DNA of 64,000 nt from Arenimonas donghaensis DSM 18148 = HO3-R19 (GTDB lineage Bacteria; Pseudomonadota; Gammaproteobacteria; Xanthomonadales; Xanthomonadaceae). Positions 43,414-48,114 of this stretch are shown here, one piece after another. The stretch is from the NCBI RefSeq assembly GCF_000743535.1, contig NZ_AVCJ01000001.1, positions 496,001 to 560,000 of the forward strand, in the 5' to 3' direction. Numbering within the stretch: position 1 is the first letter of the stretch; the number at the start of each line of letters is the position of its first letter. Position numbers and translations under genes: made by a program. Below the pieces are notes generated by a model, which did not search any database, was not told the DNA's origin, and was given only the letters and a program-made list of their open reading frames with translations.

Positions 43414-43473
43414 TTGACGGCCCCTGGCCACGGGCCTAACCTTCCAATATCTTTGAATCCGGATGAAAGGATA
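43414..43473 (+). promoter_or_regulatory. Promoter and 26-bp palindromic operator of the ArsR-methyltransferase/metH unit
   Basis: TTGACG (43414-43419) and TAACCT (43437-43442) with 17-bp spacing form the best promoter. Just downstream is an imperfect palindrome at 43448-43473: left half TATCTTTGAATCC, right half GGATGAAAGGATA, matching 10 of 13 positions as reverse complements. It would cover the transcription start and the AAGG ribosome site, and it ends 4 bp before the ATG at 43478. This is the expected place for an ArsR-type autorepressor. Protein binding is inferred. Confidence 0.7.
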
Positions 43474-43477
43474 AAGC

Positions 43478-44407
43478 ATGGACCTGGACGCCTGGTCGGC
43501 CTGTTTGAAGGTCCTTTCCGACCCCACCCGGGTCCGGCTGCTGGCCCTGCTCGAGGGCGAAGAGCTCACCGTGGCCGAATTGGCCGCCATCACCCGCCTG
43601 GCCCAGCCGCGCGTCTCCACCCACCTGGCCAGGCTCAAGGAAGCCGACCTGGTGCGCGACCGTCGTGCCGGCGTGTCGGCCTACTACCGTTTCAACGGCG
43701 ACACCCTGGACCCGGGCGAGGCCCGGCTCTGGGAAGCCCTGCGCGACAGCACCGACGATCCGCTGCTGCGCCAGGACGCCGAACGCCTGCCGGCGGTGCT
43801 GGCCACCCGCGCCGCCGACCAGAACTGGGCCGACTCGGTCGCCGGCGACATGGAGCGGCACTATTCCCCGGGCCGTACCTGGGAGGCCCTGGCCCGCTCC
43901 ACCCTGCCCCTGCTCGAACCCGGCGACGTGCTCGACGTCGCGTCCGGCGACGGCGTGCTCGGCGAGTTGCTGGCGCCGCATGCGCGTCGCTACGTCTGCG
44001 TGGACTCGAGCAGCCGGGTGGTCAACGCCGCCCGCGAGCGGCTGAGCAAGTACCGCCACGTCGAGGTGCTCGAAGGCGACATGCAGGCCCTGGATTTCCA
44101 GGCCGCGCAGTTCGACCTGGTGCTGCTCATGCACGCGCTGACCTACGCCGAACGGCCGGCCCAGGCCATCGCCGAAGCCGCCCGCGTACTGCGCCGGGGC
44201 GGCCGGCTGGTCGCCACCTGCCTGGGCAAGCACGAGCACCGCGCCGCGGTCACGCCCTATGGCCACGTCAACCTCGGCTTCACGGTCAAGGACCTGCGCC
44301 GCCACGCCGAGAAAGCGGGCCTGGAAGTGACCGTCTGCGAAGCCGTGACCCGCGAGAAGCGGCCCCCGCACTTCGAGGTCCTGACGCTGCTGGCGCGCAA
44401 GCCATGA
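43478..44407 (+). CDS. ArsR-type regulator fused to a SAM-dependent methyltransferase
   Basis: 309 residues. Residues about 1-85 are an ArsR winged helix ([52 protein letters not shown]). Residues about 130-305 are a class-I methyltransferase domain with motif [21 protein letters not shown] and motif IV-like [13 protein letters not shown]. No metal-binding CxC motif is present, so this is not a metal sensor. It overlaps metH by 4 bp (ATGA). Binding of SAM or S-adenosylhomocysteine by the C-terminal domain would let it control methionine synthesis; SahR, an ArsR-family regulator of the SAM cycle in Proteobacteria, is a precedent. Whether the domain is catalytic is unknown. Confidence 0.85.
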
Positions 44408-47400
44408 GCCAGCTTCCCTGGCACGACCCAGGGCGCAGCGAGCGCCTGCTGCAGGCATTATCCGAACGCATCCTGGTGCTCGACGGCGCCATGGGCACGC
44501 TCATCCAGCGCCACGAACTGGGCGAGGCCGACTACCGCGGCGAGCGCTTCGCCGGTTCGGGGCGCGACCTCAAGGGGAACAACGACCTGCTCACCCTGGT
44601 CCGCCCCGACATCATCGCCGGCATCCACCAGGCCTACTTCGACGCCGGCGCCGACATCGTCGAAACCAATACGTTCAACTCGACCGCGGTCTCGCAGTCC
44701 GACTATGGCCTCGAGGCCCTGGTGCCGGAACTCAACCGCGAGGCTGCCCGCCTGGCCCGCGCCTGCGCCGCCCGGGCCGAGGCCGCCGATCCCGGGCGCC
44801 CGCGCTGGGTGGCCGGCGTACTGGGACCGACCAGCCGCACGGCCTCGATCAGCCCCAAGGTCGAGGACGCCGGCTACCGCAACACCAGCTTCGACGCCCT
44901 CGTCGCCGACTACACGGTCGCCGCGCGCGCCCTGGTCGAAGGCGGCGCCGACATCCTGATGGTCGAGACGGTGTTCGACACCCTCAATGCCAAGGCGGCG
45001 CTGTACGCGCTCGACGTGCTGTTCGAAGAACTGGGCGCGCGCGTGCCGGTGATGGTCTCGGGCACGATCACCGACCGCAGCGGACGCACCCTGTCGGGCC
45101 AGACCGCCGAAGCCTTCTGGTACTCGCTGCGCCACGCCCGGCCGCTGTCGGTGGGCCTGAACTGCGCGCTCGGCGCCCGGGACCTGCGCCCGCACGTGGA
45201 CATGCTGTCCCAGGTCGCCGACACCCACATCAGCTGCCACCCCAACGCCGGCCTGCCCAATGCCTTCGGGGGCTACGACGAGGGCCCGGAGGAAACCGCC
45301 GGCATCCTGCGCGAGTTCGCCGAAGCCGGCCTGCTCAACCTGGTCGGTGGCTGCTGCGGCACCACGCCCGGGCACATCGCCGCGATCGCCAAGGCCGTGC
45401 ACGGCCTGCCGCCGCGGCAGCTGCCCACCCTGCCCGCCCATACCCGGCTGGCGGGCCTGGAACCCTTCGTCATCACGCCCGACACCAATTTCGTCAACGT
45501 CGGCGAACGCACCAATGTCACCGGCTCGATCCAGTTCAAGAAGCTGATCCTGGAAAACCGCTACGACGACGCCCTGGCCGTGGCCCGCCAGCAGGTCGAG
45601 AACGGCGCCCAGGTCATCGACGTGAACATGGACGAGGGCATGCTCGACGCCGAGGCGGCCATGGTCCGCTTCCTCAACCTGGTCGCGGCCGAACCCGACA
45701 TCGCCCGGGTGCCGGTGATGATCGACAGCTCGAAATGGAGCGTGATCGAAGCCGGCCTCAAATGCGTGCAGGGCAAGGCGATCGTCAACTCCATCTCGAT
45801 GAAGGAAGGCGAAGCCAGCTTCCTGGCCCAGGCCCGCGAGGCGCGCCGGCACGGCGCCGCCGTGGTGGTGATGGCCTTCGACGAACAGGGCCAGGCCGAC
45901 ACGTTCGAGCGCAAGGTCGCCATCTGCAGCCGCGCCCATGCCCTGCTGGTCGGGCAGGCGGGGCTGGCGCCCGAAGACATCATCTTCGACCCCAACATCT
46001 TCGCCATCGCCACCGGCATCGAGGAACACGATGGCTACGCCGTGGCCTTCATCGAGGCAGCGCGCGAACTCAAGCGGCGCTTCCCCGACTGCCATGTGTC
46101 GGGCGGCGTATCGAACGTCTCGTTCTCGTTCCGCGGCAACAACGCCGTGCGCGAGGCCATCCATGCGGTGTTCCTGTACCACGCCATCGGCGCCGGCATG
46201 GACATGGGCATCGTCAACGCCGGTGCGCTGGCCCTGTACGACGACCTCGACCCGGCGCTGCGCGAGGCGGTCGAGGACGTGGTGCTCAATCGCCGTGGCG
46301 ACGGCACCGAACGCCTGCTCGCCGAAGCAGAGAAGCACAAATCGAAGAAGGGCGAGGTCCGCTCCGAGGACCTGGCCTGGCGCGAATGGCCGGTGGACCG
46401 GCGCATCAGCCACGCCCTCGTGCACGGCATCGACAAATACATCGAGGCCGACGCCGAACTGGCGCGGCAGGGCTCGTCGCGGCCGCTGGACGTGATCGAA
46501 GGGCCGCTGATGGCCGGCATGAACGTGGTCGGCGACCTGTTCGGGGCCGGCAAGATGTTCCTGCCCCAAGTGGTCAAGTCGGCCCGGGTGATGAAGCGCG
46601 CGGTCGCCCACCTCATCCCCTACATCGAGGCCGAAAAGGCCCGCAGCGGCGACGCCGGCAAGCCCCGCGGCAAGGTGCTGATGGCCACGGTCAAGGGCGA
46701 CGTGCACGACATCGGCAAGAACATCGTCGGGGTGGTCCTGGCCTGCAACAACTTCGAGGTCGTCGACCTGGGCGTGATGGTGCCGGCCCAGGTCATCCTG
46801 GACCGTGCCCGCGAGGAAAACGCCGACGCCATCGGCCTGTCCGGGCTGATCACGCCCTCGCTCGAGGAAATGAGCCACGTCGCCCGCGAGATGAAGCGCC
46901 AGGGCTTCACGATGCCGCTGCTGATCGGCGGCGCCACCACGTCGCGGGCGCATACGGCCCTGAAGATCGATCCGCACTACGATGCGCCGGTGATCTGGGT
47001 GAAGGACGCCTCGCGCGCGGTGGGGGTCACCCAGTCCCTGCTCAGCGCCGAGCTGCACGCGCCCTTCGTCGCCGCCAATTCGGCCGACTACGCCGAGGTG
47101 CGAAAACGCCACGCCAACCGGGGCGACGCCAAGCCGCTGATGCCGCTGGCGAAGGCGCGGGCCAAGCGCTTCGACGGCGGCTGGACCCGGTATGCGCCGC
47201 CCGCGCCGCGCAAGCCCGGCCTGACGGTCTTCGACGACTATCCGCTTGCCCAACTGCGCCCGCTGATCGACTGGACGCCGTTCTTCCAGACCTGGGAGCT
47301 GGCCGGCCGCTACCCCGCCATCCTCGATGACGAGGTGGTGGGTGCGCAGGCGCGCGAACTGTTCGCCGACGCGAAGGCCATGCTCGACCAGATCATCGAG

Positions 47401-48114
47401 GGAAAATGGCTGCGCGCGAAGGCGGTGGCGGGGCTGTGGCCGGCGCGTTCGGTCGGCGACGACATCCAGGTGCTCGACGACACCGGCCATCTGCGCGCCA
47501 CCCTGCACTGCCTGCGGCAGCAGGCCGACAAGCCCGAAGACCGCCCCAACCTGTGCCTGGCCGATTTCGTGGCGCCGCGTGACGCCGGCATCGAGGATTG
47601 GGTCGGTGGTTTCGCGGTCACCGCGGGCCTGGGCATCGAACCGCACCTGGCGCGCTTCGAGGCCAGCCACGACGACTACAACGCGATCCTGCTCAAGGCC
47701 CTGGCCGACCGGCTGGCGGAAGCCCTGGCCGAAGCCCTGCACCAGCGCGTGCGCACCGAACTGTGGGGCTATGCCCCCGACGAGGCGCTCGACAACGAGT
47801 CCCTGGTGCGCGAGCAGTACCGCGGCATCCGGCCGGCCCCGGGTTACCCGGCCTGCCCGGAGCACAGCGAAAAGGCGACCCTGTTCACCCTGCTCGACGC
47901 GGAGCGCCATACGGGCATCACGCTGACCGAGAGTTTCGCCATGAGCCCGGCCGCGGCCGTGAGCGGGCTGTACTTCTCGCATCCGGGCAGCCAGTACTTC
48001 GTCGTGGGCCGGCTCGGCCGCGAACAGGTCGCGGACTACGCCCGCCGCAAGGGCGTGCCGCTGCACCAGGCCGAGCGCTGGCTGGCCAGCAACCTCGACT
48101 ACGATCCGGCCTGA
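44404..48114 (+). CDS. metH: Cobalamin-dependent methionine synthase
   Basis: A 1236-residue full-length MetH with all four modules. The homocysteine domain has zinc cysteines near 254 ([10 protein letters not shown]) and 317-318 ([10 protein letters not shown]). The methyltetrahydrofolate domain contains [20 protein letters not shown]. The B12 domain has the cobalt-ligand His near 768 ([15 protein letters not shown]). The C-terminal activation domain carries [12 protein letters not shown]. It methylates homocysteine to methionine. Translation is coupled to the ArsR-methyltransferase gene upstream. The convergent DUF2058 gene ends 1 bp away. Confidence 0.98.

Follow-up and report, generated by a model that had tools for sequence, protein, structure and literature searches.

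A SamR-type ArsR-methyltransferase fusion and its predicted operators at methionine-cycle genes of Arenimonas donghaensis and its relatives

We analysed the samR-metH locus of Arenimonas donghaensis DSM 18148 = HO3-R19, which lies within a 64,000-nt window of contig NZ_AVCJ01000001.1 (positions 496,001 to 560,000, forward strand; coordinates below count from the first letter of this window). An earlier note, made from the sequence alone, had described an open reading frame (ORF) that joins an ArsR winged helix to a class-I methyltransferase domain, overlaps metH by 4 bp and follows a 26-bp palindrome placed over its predicted transcription start and ribosome site. This observation was confirmed: the ORF product matched both HTH_5 and Methyltransf_11, and the overlap is the ATGA at 44404-44407. 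We refer to the gene as samR, after the regulator predicted by Leyn et al. 2014 (PMC4239095). The features of the locus are as follows.

43414..43419, + strand: -35 element TTGACG of the putative samR-metH promoter, from sequence and comparison
43437..43442, + strand: putative -10 element TAACCT, a weak match, 17 nt after the -35 element
43448..43473, no strand: putative SamR operator, 26-bp palindrome TATCTTTGAATCCGGATGAAAGGATA, covering the predicted transcription start and ribosome site
43449-43451 and 43457-43459: operator triplets ATC
43462-43464 and 43470-43472: operator triplets GAT
43467..43471, + strand: ribosome binding site AAGGA, within the right arm of the operator, from sequence
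43478..44407, + strand: samR, 309 aa, ArsR winged-helix regulator fused to a class-I S-adenosylmethionine (SAM) methyltransferase fold
43520..43657, + strand: HTH_5 winged helix, residues 15-60 (E 1e-14), including QPRVSTHLA, conserved in the alignment
43931..44212, + strand: Methyltransf_11 domain, residues 152-245 (E 7.7e-21)
43934..43954, + strand: SAM motif I, residues D153 to G159, DVASGDG
44404..48114, + strand: metH, cobalamin-dependent methionine synthase, 1236 aa, starting within the samR stop (ATGA)

The metH product carried the five Pfam domains of methionine synthase and scored 2090.6 bits against the equivalog NF007024. Position 43414 marks the -35 hexamer and also the TTG of a longer mechanical ORF; the samR gene itself starts at 43478.

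Watson-Crick pairing was found at 10/13 positions of the palindrome, and 26-mers with 10/13 pairs also occurred elsewhere in the same scan. Symmetry by itself is poor evidence; at the sequence level it is conservation that establishes the operator as real. With up to 3 mismatches the palindrome occurred once in the window and in none of 100 shuffles. Its absence from homologues had been regarded in the earlier note as fatal to its proposal, and the palindrome was conserved at 80/80 samR loci and at 33/33 loci of a second set, which served as the training set below. Both sets hold best-matching loci (the 80 being the best of at least 577 samR loci found), and they are not independent, the 80-locus set including some training genomes. 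A chance palindrome was rejected on the conservation in 80/80 loci. The promoter was putatively assigned through comparison with relatives: TTGAC lay 28-36 nt 5' of the operator in 79/80 samR loci, and several relatives had better -10 elements at the equivalent place (for example GACAAT). A generic sigma-70 scan found no promoter at the samR leader, because the proposed -10, TAACCT, is a poor match.

We built a symmetric weight matrix from the 33 training loci and applied it to the samR loci and to further genes of the pathway. It placed a site before samR in 80/80 loci; in 72 the site began 22-32 nt ahead of the start codon, and in the others it lay further upstream. In the window, the samR operator scored 40.5 and every other position scored 0 or less. 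Across 1,008,835 off-target positions in the 80 loci, three scores exceeded 5, one exceeded 10 and none exceeded 18. Outside the training set, candidate sites were found at 29/29 metK loci (30 genomes, one without a metK match), in each case with 0/100 shuffles reaching the score, at 16/18 metF loci and, for ahcY, in 11/30 genomes, where loci were anchored on the riboswitch described below. In both metF loci without a site, metF lies close behind ahcY. The negative control, metX1, had a site at 0/29 loci in the same scan. Candidate sites were also seen next to metX2 at six loci and next to metE at two, one of each being confirmed by family search, and further candidates were seen at loci L176 and L185. 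A simple pattern search of 30 genomes returned 195 forward and 2 reversed matches; this control was unfair because reversed ATC/GAT gives TAG, which is rare in coding DNA, and our conclusions rest instead on the weight matrix with its off-target count and on the metX1 control.

In the A. donghaensis genome, candidate sites precede samR-metH, metK (29.7), ahcY (23.5) and metF (11.2), a list drawn from examined loci rather than from a whole-genome matrix scan and hence possibly incomplete. The link to the SAM cycle drawn in the earlier note is thus borne out by like sites before metK, metF and ahcY. As predicted sites, they match the published core regulon of SahR (sahR, ahcY, metH, metF, metK).

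Comparison with published systems identifies the window protein as the Arenimonas orthologue of the already predicted SamR. The main text of Leyn et al. 2014 (PMC4239095) predicts SamR in four Xanthomonadales genomes as an ArsR-family, SahR-like regulator, about 30% identical to SahR, that adjoins metH, would recognise a 24-bp palindrome built on ATC-10 nt-GAT in the upstream region shared by the two genes, and has putative targets including metK, metF, metE and metX2. Here, the protein has the same two domains as SahR-like proteins and is 27-35% identical to 11 of them (the label "SahR-like" being assigned in this analysis), which upholds the kinship to SahR that had been proposed; the gene overlaps metH, and a MetH start motif followed samR in 79/80 loci, no more than 264 nt past its stop; positions 43449-43472 contain ATC-N10-GAT twice, as compared with the published description; and metK and metF have predicted sites in the proportions given above. 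Unlike the published SamR, the regulon here also has candidate sites at ahcY (11/30 genomes) and cysG (10/20 loci scanned). A regulon with metK as its only SAM-cycle gene, which was a property of the four published genomes and no criterion of orthology, was not found here, given the ahcY sites. The fusion is therefore not the new design that the earlier note took it to be: the orthologue was published in 2014 with its metH linkage and 24-bp palindrome, and a related fusion, ArsR^M of Brevundimonas sp. M20, was reported to shift its own promoter in an electrophoretic mobility shift assay (PMC10190100). What is new are the predicted sites at ahcY and cysG and the two-level site pattern described next; we found no report of SamR sites at ahcY or cysG in the open literature, subscription papers not being covered, and cysG is absent from the main text of PMC4239095.

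The motif reads ATC-N5-ATC-N2-GAT-N5-GAT, in which two ATC-N10-GAT units overlap with an offset of 8 bp. Both units were intact at samR in 75/80 and 29/33 loci, and the remaining 5 and 4 kept the distal unit only. Elsewhere the gene-proximal unit alone was kept, at metK in 27/29, at ahcY in 10/11 and at metF in 16/16 sites (53/56 together), the other three keeping both. These counts come from orthologous sites and hence do not represent separate events. The final GAT at ahcY and metF falls within the -10 element, so that its preservation may be due in part to the promoter. The cysG sites were mixed (7/10 with both units, one proximal only, one distal only and one with neither). Two-unit and one-unit sites may differ in affinity, and the rule yields a clear prediction, namely graded repression within one regulon.

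Relative to the promoters, the operators overlap the -10 element or follow it closely: those of samR and metK lie at the start site or in its vicinity, and those of ahcY and metF fall on the -10. This position points to repression, since a bound protein would block transcription. The overlap of the palindrome with the ribosome site would also suit a leader RNA element, a hairpin that hides the ribosome site with no protein operator involved, and RNA-level control has precedents nearby: a riboswitch for S-adenosylhomocysteine (SAH) serves ahcY in A. donghaensis, and a 5' untranslated region (5'UTR) is reported to control a met operon of Xanthomonas (PMC6230763). We give this explanation hardly any credence. 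The 54-nt samR leader folded no better than shuffles (z -0.22), on which a hairpin there was rejected; no Rfam family reached its gathering score in the window, samR leader included; and the ahcY and metF motifs, being upstream of and on the -10, would not be transcribed.

In the SamR protein itself, the methyltransferase fold is the obvious candidate for a ligand pocket. SAM motif I, D[IV]ASGDG, was present in 39/39 aligned sequences, the window protein included, and D176 was invariant; judged by these two features, the pocket shows no decay, and the loss of the SAM pocket that had been raised as a possible objection was not seen. Between the 9 SamR-side and 11 SahR-like proteins, near-fixed differences were seen in the recognition helix (T48/R, A51/K). 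The two groups separated at 100/100 in a tree of 20 rows with a midpoint root, and SamR did not fall among the SahR-like proteins in that tree. Six of the 21 distant rows L043-L063 stood outside alignment and tree: L045, L049 and L055 were cut or had an unresolved start, L060 was masked upstream, and L059 and L048 were full-length and left out for no good reason. SahR, known from Desulfovibrio and other Proteobacteria, is likewise an autoregulated ArsR-family regulator of SAM-cycle genes. The SahR-like relatives share both domains with SamR and form a separate clade; in contrast to SamR, the next frame has a MetF start motif in 8/11 of those aligned (judged by eye), and palindromes of the type ATATAAAGATATCTTTATAT occur in several.

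In an AlphaFold2 model, the mean predicted local distance difference test (pLDDT) score was 81.1 and the predicted template modelling (pTM) score 0.56, with residues 115-134 below a pLDDT of 50. The top full-length Foldseek matches were Rv2258c (PDB 5f8c, 5f8e) and winged-helix small-molecule methyltransferases (E 1.2e-14). Superposition over the whole length was poor, with a root-mean-square deviation of 14.6 A, so the two folds are supported and their arrangement is not.

Across the 39 sequences, C174 was the single invariant cysteine, and metal sensing through a conserved cysteine pair was rejected on this ground. Well-studied arsenite methyltransferases use several cysteines, which counts against SamR being one of them. 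A methyltransferase role nevertheless deserves consideration, in which SamR would act on a small molecule (arsenite or some other) and its winged helix would mainly serve autoregulation, as claimed for ArsR^M. The SAM motif of SamR is intact, and ArsR^M, also an ArsR/methyltransferase fusion heading a met operon (arsR^M-metF-HMT-metH), is reported to act as a methyltransferase on As(III) and also to bind its own promoter at a palindrome (PMC10190100). Its arsenic site is described as one cysteine (C134) plus residues 224-229 (PMC10190100), so a single invariant cysteine (C174) would not in itself disqualify SamR. ArsR^M differs from SamR in its operator, CTTTATATAAAG, in having metF as the next gene and in the reported arsenite methylation (PMC10190100). 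We regard an enzymatic role of this kind as improbable: candidate sites at metK, metF and ahcY suggest a regulator of the pathway, beyond autoregulation.

Taken together, we consider it highly likely that samR-metH is headed by an ArsR-type autorepressor with a SAM/SAH-pocket methyltransferase fold that jointly sets the methionine-cycle enzymes; SamR probably switches methionine and SAM-cycle genes, its own included. We infer that SamR dimerises, binds DNA, represses and takes a ligand. The methyltransferase fold would serve as a pocket for SAH or SAM, and by binding the 26-bp operator at the transcription start SamR would hold down samR and metH. Its further targets would be the one-unit sites of metK and metF and, in A. 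donghaensis and some other genomes, of ahcY.

Several observations weigh against this reading. The A. donghaensis metF site deviates at 3/12 core positions; among all metF sites, the weakest (genome G029, score 6.0) had its score reached by 1/100 shuffles. ahcY had no site in 19/30 genomes, including three of six Arenimonas. Near-fixed pocket differences between the SamR-side and SahR-like proteins (A155/G, D158/T, C174/G, H203/Y) mean that the effector may have changed, and the AlphaFold2 model leaves the relative placement of the two domains undefined. Finally, a different met operon, in Xanthomonas campestris, is reported to be under 5'UTR control with a promoter unresponsive to methionine (PMC6230763).

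The nature of the effector was left open in 2014. SahR responds to SAH (PMC4239095, PMC8877191), and for SamR Leyn et al. proposed SAM, since metK was the sole SAM-cycle gene in the Xanthomonadales regulon (PMC4239095). SAM acting as co-repressor, with MetJ-like logic, in place of SAH as inducer is a serious contender to which we assign somewhat less than an even chance; the divergence of the pocket from SahR-like proteins and the many genomes without an ahcY site speak for it, as does the published proposal. On the other side, the published argument fails family-wide and the A. donghaensis sites match the SahR core regulon. Because ahcY carries a site in 11/30 genomes, the predicted ahcY sites weaken the case for SAM over SAH across the family. 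We therefore lean slightly towards SAH, as for SahR, because ahcY bears sites, placing it at about an even chance, SAM a little lower and some other ligand at the small remainder. The position of the ahcY sites beside a SAH riboswitch makes the question readily testable.

The SAH riboswitch was present at 30/30 ahcY loci. All 11 ahcY sites lay 5' of it, their final GATA running into a TANAAT -10 element and the aptamer beginning 11-62 nt beyond. In A. donghaensis, metK lies next to ahcY on the same strand (L077:5228-8192), each gene has a SamR-like site, and the riboswitch lies between the two genes (L077:6590-6677). If SamR senses SAH, the ahcY arrangement would place two SAH-responsive layers on ahcY, a SamR site over the -10 and an aptamer downstream of it. 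We suggest, as a tentative and rather doubtful extension, that SamR and the riboswitch sense the same metabolite on the ahcY transcript, rising SAH both lifting the block and opening the leader RNA, with repression graded by the number of operator units; the one-unit sites at metK, ahcY and metF would then be released before the two-unit samR-metH operon.

The cysG sites, if functional, would join siroheme synthesis and sulfur assimilation to the methionine regulon. The cysG search gave 22 rows in 18/29 genomes, of which two weak partial rows (L304, L305) were left out of the scan. The candidate sites lay 160-224 nt 5' of the cysG N-terminal domain (L284, L288, L291, L295, L296, L299, L300, L301, L302, L303). 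The A. donghaensis genome had no match to this domain, and one MetX only. At locus L174, the divergent gene encodes a LysR regulator that resembles CysB and falls below the CysB cut-offs.

A samR match was found in 147/149 sampled genomes of the family, the two misses being assemblies 85% and 71% complete. Among named organisms, the closest relatives of the SamR protein were those of A. metalli (93%), A. caeni (93%), A. terrae (91%), A. composti (87%) and A. fontis (86%). At class level, 25/369 genomes matched samR at 1e-25 or better, and five matches, nearly full length and 44-54% identical, came from outside the order. The samR-metH pair seems to extend past Xanthomonadales. In two relatives outside the order (L044 and L045; 54% and 51% identity), a frame with a MetH start motif also follows. 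In two relatives that share one other family (L046 and L047; 49% and 47%), a different gene comes next, and no SamR-like site was found within 220 nt upstream. A contig labelled Rhizobium sp., from a metagenome-assembled genome (L204), carries a 95% identical samR followed by metH and is probably from a mislabelled or mixed bin.

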